From: Halorubrum sp. Hd13
GTDB taxonomy: Archaea > Halobacteriota > Halobacteria > Halobacteriales > Haloferacaceae
Length of the DNA stretch: 64,000 nucleotides
NCBI RefSeq assembly: GCF_002252755.1
Contig: NZ_NHOY01000094.1
Coordinates: forward strand, 1 to 64,000
Direction of reading: 5' to 3'
The position numbers and the translations under genes were made by a program. Below are positions 96 through 6,216 of the stretch, one piece after another. The notes below the pieces were generated by a model. It was given only the letters and a program-made list of their open reading frames with translations. It did not search any database and was not told the DNA's origin. Every line of letters begins with the position of its first letter. Positions within the stretch are counted from its first letter, which is position 1.

Positions 96-1667
96 ATGTT
101 GAACTCGATCACCACGCGGTACGGCCGACGGGTCGGGGCGGCCGTGCTCTTGACCCTGGCGGCGACGCTGGGCTTCGTCGCGCTCTTCGCGGCCCACGTC
201 GCGACGACCGGCACGGCGGCGGCCGCGACCGCGTCGCTTGTCTCGGTCGGGGTCGTCGTCACGCTGAACCTCGGACTGCTCGGAATCGTACTGATCGGCA
301 ACGTCGCGGTCGAGCTCCGGCGGCTGACGGAGACGGCCGAGGCGGTCGGCCGCGGCGACTTCGACGCCCGCGCCACCTCCGACCGGGGCGACGAGATCGG
401 GCGCCTGTTCGCCGCTTTCGACGACACCCGGCGGTCGCTCCGGGACGCGGTCGCCGAGTCCGAACGCGCCGAGGCGGAGGCGGAGGCGGCCCGCCGGGAG
501 GCGGAGGAGATGTCGGACGAGATCTTGGCGCGCGCCGAGACGATCGGCGGCGCCATGGAACGGGCGGCCGACGGCGACCTCTCGCGGCGGCTCCCCGAGG
601 AGAGCGAGGTCGACGCGATCGAGCGCATCACCGCCGCCTACAACGAGATGACGGGCGGGCTCTCGGAGACCGTCGACGACATCCAGTCGTTCGCGAGCGA
701 CGTGGAGTCGACCAGCGAGGAGATGGCGACGCGCGCCGACGAGGTCGCCGGGATGAACGAGGAGGTGGCCGCCGAGATGCGGGCGCTTGCCGACGAGCTG
801 GACGAGCAGACCGATCGGCTTCGCGAGACGGCCAGGGACACCGACGACTTCTCCGCGACCGTCGAGGAGATCGCGTCGACGACCGACGAGGTGGCGGGCG
901 ACGCGACCGCCGCCGCCGAGCTCGGGACGCGGGGCGAGGAGCGCGCGACCGAGGCGGTCGAGGCGATCGTCGCGATCGGCGACCTGCTGGCGGAGCTGGA
1001 CGACCTCGTGGCCGGGCTCGACGACCGGATGGACGGGGTCGCGGAGACGACCGACGTGATCTCCGACATCGCCGAGCAGACGAACATCCTCGCGCTGAAC
1101 GCCTCGATCGAGGCGTCGCGGGCGGGCGAGGACGGCGACGGGTTCGCGGTCGTCGCCGACGAGGTGAAGGGGCTCGCCGAGGAGACCCGCGAGTCGACGA
1201 CCGAGATCGAGGCGACCATCGGGGAGGTGACCGAGGACGTCTCCGCGGTCGCCGGCGAGATGGACCGGACGATGGGGGAGCTCGACGAGACGACCGCGGC
1301 GGTCCGCGCGGCCGGCGACGCGATCGAGGAGCTCACCGGGACCGTCGAGGACGTGGACGTGGCGATGGGCGACATCGCGCGGGCGACCGACGAGGGCGCG
1401 GAGGGGATCGAGTCCGTCGCGGCGCGCGTCGAGTCGGTCCACGCCTCGGCCACCGACGCCGCGGACCGCGCGCGGTCGCTGGCGGGGACCGCGGACGACA
1501 CCGCCGAGACCGTCGGCGACCTCGCCGAGACGGCGACGGCGCTCTCGGAGCGGACCGCGTCGCTCTCCGAGCGACTCGACCAGTTCGAGACGCGACGGGA
1601 CGCGGGCGCCGGACCGGCGGCCGAGCCGGGCGCCGCCGCCGACTCGGAGGTGACGGCCGATGATTGA
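96..1667 (+). CDS. Htr-type transducer (methyl-accepting chemotaxis protein) paired with an opsin-like protein
   Basis: This 523-residue membrane transducer would relay a signal from a membrane partner to CheA/CheW and so control the flagellar motor. It has two membrane helices (about 12-35 and 44-70) joined by only about ten outside residues, so there is no room for a ligand-binding domain. A HAMP domain follows (about 66-118), then a long methyl-accepting coiled coil with the conserved tip around [16 protein letters not shown] and [15 protein letters not shown]. The plan matches Natronomonas HtrII, the partner of sensory rhodopsin II. Asn58 in TM2, in the string LNLGLL, lines up with the HtrII asparagine that hydrogen-bonds to the rhodopsin. 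The gene overlaps the opsin-like gene by 8 bases, as htr-sop pairs often do. The family call is firm; the stimulus is unknown because the partner cannot bind retinal in the usual way. Confidence 0.9.
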
Positions 1668-2418
1668 GCCGTCCACGGTTCGGTTCGTGTCCGCGGGGAT
1701 CTACGCCGTCTCCGCCGTCGTCCTGCTCGCGCTCGCGCGCCGCAAACCGGCGGCGCTGCGCCGGTACTGTTACCCGTTCGTCGCGGTCGTCGCGACCGCG
1801 GCCGTCGGCGTCGGGCTGTGGGGGGCCGGGATCGGGACGTTCTCGGTCGCGAACGGCACGCTGGAGGGCGGACAGGTGCTCACCGACTACGTGGCGTACC
1901 CGTTCCTGTTCGGGTTCGCGGCGTTCGTGGCGGGGACGAGCCGGCGGTACGTCGGCGCCGTGGTCGCCCTCATCGTCGCGATGCGGGTCGGCTACGACGT
2001 CGCCGAGGTGTTCGAGGGGCCCCTCGCGCTGGCGGGCACCGGAACCATCCTCGTCGGCTACGTCGCGCTGGTCTGGCTCTACTTCGGGCCGATCGCGGGC
2101 GCGGCGTCCCGCCAGCCGCCGGCCCGCGAGCTGTTCTACAAGAAGACCCGGAACCTCGTCCTGTTCGCCTTCGGGGTCCTCATCGCGTGGGCGATGTTCC
2201 AGATCGCCGGGCTGCTCGACGCGTTCACCGGCACGGTGACGCTGGAGTACCTCGACCTGCTCCTGCGCGTCGGCTTCGCGGGCTTCGCGTTCGCGAACGT
2301 GGAGACGCTGGCGGCGGGCGAAGAACCGGAGACGAGCGGCGGCTCGGCGCCGGGCGGCGACGCCGGGGCGGCACCGACCGACTCGGGACCGAACGCGGCG
2401 ACGTCTGGCGCGGACTGA
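1660..2418 (+). CDS. Opsin-like seven-helix protein lacking the retinal Schiff-base lysine
   Basis: This 252-residue protein has seven predicted membrane helices and aligns almost without gaps to sensory rhodopsin II (NpSRII), helped by the strings [20 protein letters not shown] and [10 protein letters not shown]. In helix G the counterion Asp is kept (Asp199), but the retinal-binding lysine is Arg203 (codon CGC at 2266-2268). The only lysines are Lys29, Lys161 and Lys162, all in loops. Other pocket residues are also changed, using NpSRII numbering from memory: Arg72 to Gln, Asp75 to Thr, Trp76 to Asp, Trp171 to Phe, Tyr174 to Leu and Trp178 to Ala. Tyr197 matches the Tyr199 that contacts the transducer. 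The reading frame is intact and overlaps the transducer gene. I infer a non-photochemical opsin relative that still docks on its transducer; the ligand or signal is unknown. The C-terminal 30 residues are low complexity. Confidence 0.85.
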
Positions 2419-2510: not shown

Positions 2511-3128
2511 ATGACCGAGAACGCGGACGGGCTCGACGCCGAGCTCCGGGTGCCGTCCTGCGAGCGCTGTCCGGCGCTCGTCGAGTCGCGGAGTCAGATC
2601 GTTGACGGCGTCGGGCCGACCGACGCCGACCTCCTGTTCGTCGGCGAGGGGCCGGGCGCGAACGAGGACGAGCAAGGGGAGCCGTTCGTCGGGCGGTCGG
2701 GGGACGTGCTCGACGAGGCGCTGCGGGACGCCGGCCTCGCGCGGGCGGACGTCCGGATCACCAACTGCGTCCGGTGTCGCCCCCCCGACAACCGGGATCC
2801 GACGACCGAGGAGCTGGCGAACTGCCGGGGCCACCTCGAGAGCGAGATCGACCGGCTCGACCCCGCGCTGATCGTGACGCTGGGGAAGGTGCCGAGCGAG
2901 CACCTGCTCGACCGGTCGGTGGCGATCACGTCGGAGTCGGGCGACGTCGTCGACGCGCGGATCGCGGGCGCGTCGCGGCGCGTCCTGCTCTCCGTCCACC
3001 CGGCGGCGACGCTGTACGACCGGAGCCAGCGCGACGGCTTCTTCGAGACGATCGCCAGGGCGGGCGAGCTGAGCGGCGCGGGCGGCGCGGACGGCGGGAG
3101 CGGTCAGTCGCGGCTCGGCGAGTACTGA
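2511..3128 (+). CDS. udg: Uracil-DNA glycosylase, family 4 (Fe-S type)
   Basis: This 205-residue enzyme removes uracil from DNA as the first step of base excision repair. Motif 1 appears as GEGPGANEDEQGEPFVGRSG (about 45-64) and the second catalytic motif as SVHPAA near residue 160. Four cysteines placed as in family 4 enzymes (Cys17, Cys20, Cys86, Cys105) would hold a 4Fe-4S cluster. An in-frame ATG lies at 2484, but CTTATG around 2481-2486 sits where a weak TATA box for a leaderless start at 2511 would be, so I chose 2511. It is separated from the opsin gene by 92 bases and is probably expressed independently. A 22-bp tandem repeat follows it. Confidence 0.9.
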   Translation: MTENADGLDAELRVPSCERCPALVESRSQIVDGVGPTDADLLFVGEGPGANEDEQGEPFVGRSGDVLDEALRDAGLARADVRITNCVRCRPPDNRDPTTEELANCRGHLESEIDRLDPALIVTLGKVPSEHLLDRSVAITSESGDVVDARIAGASRRVLLSVHPAATLYDRSQRDGFFETIARAGELSGAGGADGGSGQSRLGEY

Positions 3129-3188
3129 CTCGGCCGCGGGAGCGATTCCGGCGACAGCCGGATCGGCCGAGTTCCCAGATGCTCCGAT

Positions 3189-3270
3189 CGGACGGAGTCG
3201 GCGGGAGAATCGGACGGAGTCGGCGGGAGAATCGGACGGAGTCGGCGGGAGAATCGAACGAATCGGCAGG
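3189..3270. repeat. 22-bp tandem repeat, three perfect copies plus a degenerate fourth
   Basis: Perfect copies lie at 3189-3210, 3211-3232 and 3233-3254, followed by a diverged partial copy. The unit begins CGGACGGAGTCGG and ends GGGAGAAT. It is in the non-coding gap between udg and phnD. It looks like replication-slippage expansion; there is no sign of coding or of a clear hairpin. Confidence 0.9.
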
Positions 3271-3325
3271 ATCTACACAGCAAACATAGAAAACGATTAG
3301 TCGCGCCAGTCAGACACACGCTTGT

Positions 3326-4405
3326 ATGTCCGACAACAGGCGGTCGGCGAACCGGCGTACGTTTATCAAGACAGCGGGCGCGGGCGGTGTCGTCGCGCTC
3401 GCCGGCTGTTCCGGCGGCGGCGGCGACGGTTCCGACGGGAGCGACGGCTCCGACGGAAGCGACGGGTCCGACGGCTCCGACGGGAGCGACGGCGGGACCT
3501 CCGGCGAGACGGACGACGTGCCCTCCGCGCAGTTCATCCTGAACCCGGCCGAGGCCGACGTGGAGATCGAACAGCAGTACCAGCCGATGTTCGAGTACCT
3601 CGAGTCCGAGGTCGAGGTCGAGATCGAGTCCGACCGCGCGGCCAGCTACACCGCGACGCTCCAGGCGATGCGGAACGAGCAGGGCGAGATCGCGGACATC
3701 TCGCCGTCCGCGGTCATCGCGGGCGAGGACATCCTCGACGTCGTCGGGGTCCGGGTCGCGTACGGCGCGGCGCGGTACTTCTCGACGACCACGACGACGC
3801 CCGACAGCGGCATCGAGTCGCTCTCCGACCTCGAAGGCGAGCTGATCTACATGGGCGACATCCTCTCCGTCTCGGGGACGCTCGTCCCCCTCACCATGCT
3901 GCAGAACGCGGGCCTCGACATCGGGAACGCCCCCGACGGCGACGCGAACGACTTCGACGCGGAGTACTCCGACCACACCACGGCGCGAGAGCAGATGGTC
4001 CAGCGCGACGACGTGATGGCGGCGACGACCGGCGCCTTCTCCTCGGCCCCGTACGTCCCGCAGGAGCAGTTCGAGGAGATGTCCCAGGACTTCGTCGACA
4101 TCTCGGCGGAGTACGAGGGCGCCGGCGACGAGATCGAGTCGTCCGGGACGGAGCTCCAGCTGCTCGCGGTGTCCGACCCGATCCCGCGCGCGCCGCTGGC
4201 GACGCGGTCCAGCTGGGACGCCCCGGTCAAGGCCGACATCGAGGAGGCCATCCTGAACGTAACCGAGGACGACCTCAGTCACGGCGACGACTACGACGGC
4301 GAGCCGCTCTGGTTCACCGGCGTCCAGGAGGGTAGCATCGAGGACTACGAGCCGATCCGCGACGTGCTCGACCAGCTCGGTCTCGAGTTCGAAGACCTTT
4401 CGTAA
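3326..4405 (+). CDS. phnD: Phosphonate/phosphate-type ABC transporter substrate-binding lipoprotein
   Basis: This 359-residue PhnD-family receptor binds a phosphonate or related oxyanion outside the cell and hands it to the importer made by the next two genes. The N-terminus has a twin-arginine signal (Arg10-Arg11, RRTFIK) and a lipobox ending at Cys28 (LAGC), so it should be exported folded and anchored by a lipid. A Gly/Ser/Asp spacer of about 30 residues with repeated GSD units follows. The PhnD fold starts near residue 65 (SAQFILNP) and contains the family signature of scanning for ISPSAVIAGEDI. phnC starts 27 bases downstream. The real substrate may be phosphate, phosphite or a phosphonate; no phosphonate-degrading gene is nearby. 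Confidence 0.9.
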   Translation: MSDNRRSANRRTFIKTAGAGGVVALAGCSGGGGDGSDGSDGSDGSDGSDGSDGSDGGTSGETDDVPSAQFILNPAEADVEIEQQYQPMFEYLESEVEVEIESDRAASYTATLQAMRNEQGEIADISPSAVIAGEDILDVVGVRVAYGAARYFSTTTTTPDSGIESLSDLEGELIYMGDILSVSGTLVPLTMLQNAGLDIGNAPDGDANDFDAEYSDHTTAREQMVQRDDVMAATTGAFSSAPYVPQEQFEEMSQDFVDISAEYEGAGDEIESSGTELQLLAVSDPIPRAPLATRSSWDAPVKADIEEAILNVTEDDLSHGDDYDGEPLWFTGVQEGSIEDYEPIRDVLDQLGLEFEDLS

Positions 4406-4432
4406 CCACCTCTCAACCTCTCTTTACACCTA

Positions 4433-5251
4433 ATGAGTCGTATTACAGTCGACGGGGTCACGAAGCGGTTCGGCGACACCGTGGCGCTCGACGACGTCTC
4501 GTTCGAGGTCCCCCAGGGCGAGTTCGTCATCGTGCTCGGCGTCTCCGGGTCCGGGAAGTCGACGCTGCTCCGGTGTATGAACGCGCTCGAAACCCCGACT
4601 GACGGGGAGATCCGCGTCGGCGACGAGCCCGTCAACAGCCCCCGCAACGACATCGCGATGATCTTCCAGCAACACAACATCATCGACCAGATGACCGCGT
4701 ACTCCAACGCGCTCACCGGGTCGCTCAACCGGAACACCTTCCTCGACTCCCTGCTCCAGCGGCAGGGCGAGGCGGACAAGCTCCAAGCGTTGGAGGCGCT
4801 CGACACCGTGGGGCTGCTCGACGAGGCCCAACAGAGCGCGAAGCGCATGTCCGGCGGGCAACAGCAGCGCGTCGGCATCGCCCGAGCGCTGGTACAGGAC
4901 CCGACGATACTGCTGGCCGACGAGCCGGTCGCGAGCCTCGACCCGGGCTCCTCCCAGCAGGTCATGGGGTACCTCCGGACCGCCGCGCGCAAGCGTGACC
5001 TGACGGCCGTCATCAGCCTGCATCAGGTGAACCTCGCCCGGAAGTTCGGCGAGCGGTTCATCGGGCTCCGCGACGGGCGGAAGGTGTTCGACGGCTACCG
5101 CGACGAGTTCGACATGGACGTTATCGACGAGATCTACGGCGACATCGACACGGAAGGCATGTTCGCGCCCGACAGCGATCGGGACGGCGACGACGGGTCG
5201 ATCGACGACGCGTCGTCGAAGCCGGTCTCCGGCGGGGGGATGGGACAGTGA
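4433..5251 (+). CDS. phnC: Phosphonate-type ABC transporter ATP-binding protein
   Basis: This 272-residue ATPase powers the importer. Walker A is GVSGSGKST (36-44), the signature is MSGGQQQR (about residue 140), and Walker B is LLADEPVASLD (about residue 163), with the switch His in ISLHQVN. Length and order of motifs are typical for PhnC; the last 35 residues are an acidic, Ser/Gly-rich tail typical of halophiles. The ATG lies 27 bases after the phnD stop, and the GTG start of phnE overlaps the stop of this gene (GTGA), so the three genes form one operon. Confidence 0.93.
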   Translation: MSRITVDGVTKRFGDTVALDDVSFEVPQGEFVIVLGVSGSGKSTLLRCMNALETPTDGEIRVGDEPVNSPRNDIAMIFQQHNIIDQMTAYSNALTGSLNRNTFLDSLLQRQGEADKLQALEALDTVGLLDEAQQSAKRMSGGQQQRVGIARALVQDPTILLADEPVASLDPGSSQQVMGYLRTAARKRDLTAVISLHQVNLARKFGERFIGLRDGRKVFDGYRDEFDMDVIDEIYGDIDTEGMFAPDSDRDGDDGSIDDASSKPVSGGGMGQ

Positions 5252-6216
5252 GCTACGACGAGTCCGTCCGGGAGCGCTACGAGGCGATCGTCCTCGCTCG
5301 GCGCGTCAAGGCGCTCGTGATGGGCCTCGCGTTCGTCGTGCTCGGCGCGGTGTTCTACTACGCGCTCACCTCCGTCGGCTTCTTCGCGGCCAACATCCCC
5401 ACCTACTTCCCGAACTTCCTCAACGCGCTCCGCGACTTCTTCCCGTTCCTCGCGCCGTCGTTCCCCTTCGTCGACCCGGGCGGCTTCCTCGAGTACTGGA
5501 CGTTCATCAATGAGCGGAACCTCATCTGGGGCGGCATCGGAGGCGACACGCCGCTCCTCGGCGAGGCCGGTATCACGCTCGCGATGGGCTTCGCCGGCAC
5601 CGTCATGGGATTCCCGTTCGCGCTGCTGTTCGGAATCTTAGGCTCCGGCCGCGTGACGCCGTTCCCGTTCAACTTCATCTTCCGCGGGCTCATGTCCTCG
5701 ATCCGCGCCATCCCGGCGCTCGTGTGGGGGCTCATCTACATCCCGCTCGGCGGGATCGGTCCCGTCACCGCGACGCTCGCGATCGCGACCGACACTATCG
5801 GCAACCTCGGGCGGCTCTTCACCGACGAACTGGAGGAGATCGAGGACGGACCGATCGAGGCGATGGAGACGACCGGCGCGAACAAGCCGCAGACGATCAC
5901 CTTCGGGATGCTCTCGCAGGTGACGACGCCGTTCATCGCGTGGACGCTGTACATCTTCGAGATCAACGTCCGGATCGCCGTCTCGCTCGGGATCATCGGC
6001 GGCGGCGGGCTCGGGAACGTGCTCTCCGTCCAGCAGGGGCTGTTCGCGTTCACCAACATGATGGCGACGATCCTCGTCATCCTCGTGCTGATCATCTCCG
6101 TGGAGATCTTCTCTCAGCGGATCCGCTCCGCGCTCCGCGAGGGCGACGAGGCGCAGGGCATCGTGGCGCTGCTGTTGGGCTTCCCGCAGCGGATGGCCGA
6201 GGCGGCGCTGAAGTGA
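5248..6216 (+). CDS. phnE: Phosphonate-type ABC transporter permease
   Basis: This 322-residue inner-membrane permease forms the channel of the importer. About six membrane helices are visible, including VMGLAFVVLGAVFYYAL and a C-terminal ATILVILVLIISVEIF. The cytoplasmic EAA-like loop that contacts PhnC is present around DELEEIEDGPIEAMETTGAN. Translation starts with GTG at 5248, overlapping the TGA of phnC by four bases, which implies coupled translation. PhnE proteins are often 260-300 residues; the extra length is a periplasmic segment between the first two helices. Confidence 0.92.
   Translation: MSYDESVRERYEAIVLARRVKALVMGLAFVVLGAVFYYALTSVGFFAANIPTYFPNFLNALRDFFPFLAPSFPFVDPGGFLEYWTFINERNLIWGGIGGDTPLLGEAGITLAMGFAGTVMGFPFALLFGILGSGRVTPFPFNFIFRGLMSSIRAIPALVWGLIYIPLGGIGPVTATLAIATDTIGNLGRLFTDELEEIEDGPIEAMETTGANKPQTITFGMLSQVTTPFIAWTLYIFEINVRIAVSLGIIGGGGLGNVLSVQQGLFAFTNMMATILVILVLIISVEIFSQRIRSALREGDEAQGIVALLLGFPQRMAEAALK

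Follow-up and report, generated by a model that had tools for sequence, protein, structure and literature searches.

A lysine-less sensory rhodopsin II homologue and its transducer in Halorubrum sp. Hd13: a group A opsin-related protein with a candidate ion-pair switch at the former Schiff-base site

The window analysed here is a stretch of 64,000 nucleotides from Halorubrum sp. Hd13 (contig NZ_NHOY01000094.1). It encodes a transducer and an opsin-like protein on the forward strand, with the following features.

96..1667, + strand: htr-type transducer (methyl-accepting chemotaxis protein, MCP), 523 aa; HAMP domain at residues 66-117, MCPsignal domain at residues 298-449, pair of transmembrane (TM) helices assigned from hydropathy
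267..269, + strand: codon of Asn58 in TM2 of the transducer, at the position of NpHtrII Asn74, which contacts Tyr199 of sensory rhodopsin II (SRII)
1660..1667, + strand: overlap of 8 nt between the transducer stop and the opsin start
1660..2418, + strand: group A opsin-related protein (ORP), a 7TM, lysine-less SRII homologue, 252 aa
1885..1887, + strand: codon of Asp76, at the NpSRII Trp76 position; proposed acidic partner of Arg203
1897..1899, + strand: codon of Tyr80, present in 57/57 members of the arginine clade described below, with Thr here in every canonical opsin compared
2248..2250, + strand: codon of Tyr197, equivalent to the transducer contact NpSRII Tyr199 and invariant in the arginine clade
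2266..2268, + strand: codon CGC of Arg203, at the Schiff-base lysine position (NpSRII Lys205)

Hydropathy places two TM helices at the N-terminus of the transducer, connected by a loop of very few residues and followed by the HAMP domain and the cytoplasmic MCP domain. The domain scan and hydropathy of this protein showed no extracellular sensor domain. It has all the features of an htr-type transducer, namely two TM helices, HAMP, an MCP signalling domain and an adjacent opsin gene, and the 8-nt overlap is of the sop-htr type, in agreement with the sequence-only reading of this DNA. Downstream of the pair (2511-6216), the window encodes a uracil-DNA-glycosylase-like gene and a PhnD/C/E-like phosphonate ABC transporter. 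We considered this neighbourhood as a hint to a ligand and dropped it; the glycosylase and transporter genes are not kept beside the ORP gene in most relatives, so they do not point to one.

NpSRII is the top phmmer match of the window opsin in the PDB (E 6.6e-9), and in the nearly gap-free alignment Arg203 lies under Lys205, as first read from the sequence. Lysines occur only at positions 29, 161 and 162. The erosion of the retinal pocket beyond this single position was also confirmed: the window opsin has Q72, T75, D76, F171, L174, A178 and R203, which in NpSRII numbering correspond to R72Q, D75T, W76D, W171F, Y174L, W178A and K205R, while Y197 and D199 (NpSRII Y199 and D201) are kept. Tyr197, Asp199 and transducer Asn58 had all been listed as conserved transducer contacts. 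This stands for Tyr197 and Asn58 but not for Asp199, the equivalent of NpSRII Asp201, which we take to be part of the counterion complex and not a transducer contact. The contact between Tyr199 of SRII and Asn74 of NpHtrII is established in the literature (PMC3274258, PMC5292967), and Thr189 is described as a second SRII/HtrII contact (PMC3274258); the window opsin has Asp187 at the latter position.

An AlphaFold2 model of the window opsin, built from 18 sequences (mean pLDDT 84), is a 7TM bundle with a BC hairpin. In a Foldseek search of the PDB with this model, SRII and the SRII/HtrII complex rank best; the best match by E-value is 1jgj (TMt 0.86, Z 24.4), and Z is about 24 against many type 1 opsins. 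The protein has the 7TM type 1 opsin fold and lacks the Schiff-base lysine of SRII. It has no match over the curated cut-off to the Pfam opsin model (PF01036, Bac_rhodopsin). Two Halorubrum ORPs scored below this cut-off. Nearly all ORPs of Halorubrum are missed by the Pfam model, so surveys built on it overlook them.

The observation is real, and lysine-less opsins with transducers are a class already published in 2016. Becker et al. surveyed 80 haloarchaeal genomes, found 48 lysine-less opsins and named them opsin-related proteins (PMC4915679). In their group A, mostly from Halorubrum, Arg replaces the lysine, Asp replaces W76, Leu replaces Y174 and position 178 carries a small residue; 15/16 members adjoin a HAMP/MCP transducer (PMC4915679). 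The sequence-only reading had cited lysine-less relatives from bacteria and fungi, which are known, and left this haloarchaeal transducer-linked class unmentioned. The window opsin has the residues of group A (R203 for Lys, D76, A178, L174 and M108) and the adjacent HAMP/MCP transducer, and clusters with named Halorubrum ORPs apart from the Lys opsins (SH-aLRT 99 for the split of the Lys group). The orthologue that we found in Halorubrum distributum (L104) shares 74% identity with it. By all features tested, the window pair is a further member of ORP group A. Becker et al. detected ORP transcripts in Halorubrum, while the protein was undetected in the native hosts, and proposed that ORPs mediate taxis in response to a non-light stimulus (PMC4915679). 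No later paper on what ORPs do turned up in the literature library searched.

We compared 52 genomes of the genus Halorubrum and aligned 24 intact orthologues, including the window sequence. Arg203 is invariant in all 24 and is encoded by three different codons (CGG in 14, CGC in 8 and CGT in 2), which excludes a sequencing error or chance. An upstream transducer lies beside each of the 24 genes, with an overlap of 4 or 8 nt in most and a gap of 6 nt in two. Two of the observations that could have overturned the initial idea, orthologues that keep the lysine and loss of the transducer pairing in relatives, were looked for: the former number 0/24, and the pairing is kept in 24/24 Halorubrum orthologues and in 54/57 members of the wider clade. 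Over the TM core, dN/dS against the window sequence is 0.14-0.50, showing that the ORP gene is under purifying selection.

The distribution of ORPs in the genus is patchy. One opsin gene (L056) is frameshifted beside an intact transducer, in L057:7914-8234 (+) a deletion has left the beginning of the transducer gene fused in frame to opsin helices F-G, and L038 holds a partial second ORP copy, also a deletion remnant, beside a full one. Such remnants and the patchiness are what a decaying gene pair heading for loss would leave behind. We regard general decay as highly improbable in view of the 24 intact reading frames and their dN/dS values, the transcripts reported in Halorubrum (PMC4915679), and the conservation across many genera of Tyr80 and Tyr199 (invariant) and of Arg (56/57).

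This conservation emerged when we searched 391 haloarchaeal genomes with profiles and placed 149 proteins in a tree. Besides the Lys opsins, the tree contains clade A (57 proteins), a second arginine clade, R2 (15), His types (5) and group B (53). Clade A, which includes the window opsin, spans several genera and families outside Halorubrum. Position 205 is Arg in 56 of its members and Ser in one, and the replacement first noticed in a single gene is thus fixed in orthologues beside htr genes both within and beyond the genus. A transducer gene lies within 30 nt upstream in 54/57, and Tyr80 and Tyr199 are present in 57/57. Among 58 transducers beside Arg205 opsins, the TM2 contact position is Asn in 43 and His in 12; the other 3 did not match the motif. 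Clade A has lost the canonical relay residues Y174 and T204, which counts against the switch proposed below, and most of the clade lacks the pocket aromatics W76, F127, W171, Y174 and W178. Group B has Leu, Val, Ile, Phe, Met or Ala at position 205. L184 and L185 have Met or Ala at this position, group with the hydrophobic type and each have an MCP gene nearby.

The R2 members (L163, L154, L164, L166, L169, L255, L256, L219-L222, L224, L225, L230 and L233) come from another haloarchaeal family. They have Arg205, Tyr76 and Gly178 and keep the canonical signalling residues R72, D/E75, Y174, D201 and mostly T204. Both R2 transducers that we read contain a long extracellular stretch. In L163, the only R2 transducer scanned in Pfam, HAMP and MCPsignal were the sole notable matches, and the long unmatched stretch before HAMP is read as a putative large extracellular domain. 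His occupies the Schiff-base position in L182, L186, L237, L250 and L252, with an MCP gene downstream of the opsin in L182 and L186. The ORP types in the description by Becker et al. are limited to Arg and hydrophobic ones (PMC4915679), so R2 and the His type look like additions to them.

The window genome contains two Brp/Blh genes and three canonical, lysine-bearing opsins, so retinal is very probably present; a shortage of retinal as the cause of lysine loss in this organism is rejected on the basis of the same genes. Outside Halorubrum, no Brp/Blh match was found in 6/29 clade A carriers, and in five of these six, whose genomes are near-complete, no Lys-opsin was found either. Three of the five have no PF01036 match, G362 has only its own two ORPs, and G101 has only a His-type relative. 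The sixth, G327, encodes a halorhodopsin-like, lysine-bearing opsin (L183:2764-3750 (+)). Becker et al. found a similar pattern for ORPs and crtY/brp (PMC4915679).

These data bear on whether an ORP could still sense light, with retinal held non-covalently or with another pigment such as a carotenoid. Retinal is available in the window genome, and an alternate chromophore was left possible by Becker et al. (PMC4915679). On the other hand, the pocket aromatics are gone in most of the clade, a purified ORP from Halorubrum distributum did not bind the retinal supplied and showed no absorption at 480-580 nm (PMC4915679), and the pair occurs in carriers where neither Brp/Blh nor a Lys-opsin was found. 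We therefore consider light sensing distinctly unlikely. That the window opsin is light-blind, as initially suggested, is well supported by the lack of the lysine in every orthologue together with these three observations.

The arginine at position 205 is almost always accompanied by an acid on helix C. Asp or Glu is present at 75 or 76 in 70/71 distinct sequences with Arg205 (the exception is L147), in 18/19 with Lys205 and in 3/5 with His205, and in 0/54 with an uncharged residue at 205. The lone Lys sequence without the acid has Thr75; chloride-pumping halorhodopsins have Thr75. Within clade A the acid shifts repeatedly between 75 and 76 (at least five and at least six changes), and loss of both needs two. 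The link between acid and cation amounts to only two to three phylogenetically independent contrasts (sign test), which makes it a pattern with too few contrasts for significance. This ion-pair pattern also seems to be an addition to the known class. In SRII, disruption of the interhelical salt bridge between the Schiff base and Asp leads to constitutive signalling (Spudich 1997, as cited in PMC5292967). We infer from the sequences that an interhelical ion pair may have been kept with Arg as the cation, the same bond whose breaking activates SRII. Group B ORPs have no cation-acid pair, and such a pair is consequently not needed in all ORPs.

We propose that the window pair works as a taxis receptor that needs no retinal and is switched at the former Schiff-base site, a reading to which we give somewhat better than even chances and in which both the ligand and the switch are inferred. 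The ORP and its cognate Htr would form a receptor complex, most likely steering the archaellum via CheA. Because the transducer has almost no extracellular part, the opsin is likely the sensing subunit. In the retinal site, now empty and also lined by Tyr80, Arg203 (helix G) would pair with Asp76 (helix C) across the helices, and this ion pair would hold the resting state, as does the salt bridge between the protonated Schiff base and Asp in SRII. The pair would be broken by a small polar or ionic stimulus arriving from outside the cell, and the resulting shift of helices F and G would turn TM2 of the transducer through Tyr197 and Asn58. The fixed gene pairing and the conserved contact between Tyr199 and Asn/His74 strongly suggest signalling through the paired transducer, the second half of the original proposal of a light-blind, transducer-coupled receptor; as a whole, that proposal is partly supported. 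The window genome encodes CheA and archaellin; as both occur in 51/52 Halorubrum genomes, their co-occurrence with ORPs is uninformative as a test of taxis.

Alternatively, the ORP might sense a physical property of the membrane (its tension, voltage or temperature, or the ionic strength) rather than a ligand. Field, salt or pressure could act on an ion pair buried among seven TM helices, and a transducer without an extracellular ligand domain would suit such a sensor. Nothing positive favours a physical stimulus, however, and the extracellularly open pocket modelled in three ORPs by Becker et al. (PMC4915679) points away from it; we rate this as rather unlikely. We think it unlikely, too, that the ORP senses nothing itself and serves its transducer, or canonical sensory rhodopsins, by helping with folding or placement or by setting their baseline. 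The opsin nearly always adjoins the transducer, and Rh-noK proteins have been proposed as regulators of a neighbouring proteorhodopsin (PMC10308929), but a specific charged, Tyr-lined site is conserved, and genomes in which the search found no Lys-opsin still have the pair, so regulating canonical rhodopsins is not a general role. Beyond the proposed retinal-independent receptor, a bolder extension is conceivable though doubtful: the Arg-Asp/Glu pair could be a chemically operated switch that reuses the lock of sensory rhodopsins, ORPs would be true chemoreceptors, and versions of this switch would operate in a His clade and in two or more Arg clades.

If ORPs are chromophore-free taxis receptors, microbial rhodopsins would parallel animal GPCRs in putting their fold to use in chemical or physical sensing. 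For asking how such a receptor could be switched, the conserved charge pair provides a residue-level handle, and in the carriers that apparently make no retinal, nature supplies strains where light drops out of the question.

Among known systems, NpSRII/HtrII shares with the window pair the fold, the gene pairing, the Tyr199-Asn74 contact positions and the HAMP/MCP transducer, and differs in having the Schiff-base lysine and the retinal pocket. Rh-noK rhodopsins and freshwater FArhodopsins are likewise type 1 opsins without the lysine, and the replacements in FArhodopsins include Arg, but these proteins are bacterial, are related to xanthorhodopsin and proteorhodopsin, and have their link to flotillin or a pump, not to an MCP (PMC10308929). 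Group B ORPs are lysine-less opsin homologues, many of them close to transducers; they have a hydrophobic residue at 205, Gly75-Tyr76 and a conserved R72, whereas the window opsin has Arg205, Thr75-Asp76 and Gln72. The closest system is ORP group A, mainly from Halorubrum, which shares with the window pair the Lys-to-Arg replacement, W76D, W178A, Y174L, the kept Y199, Asp at 189 and the adjoining HAMP/MCP transducer, with no essential difference between them.
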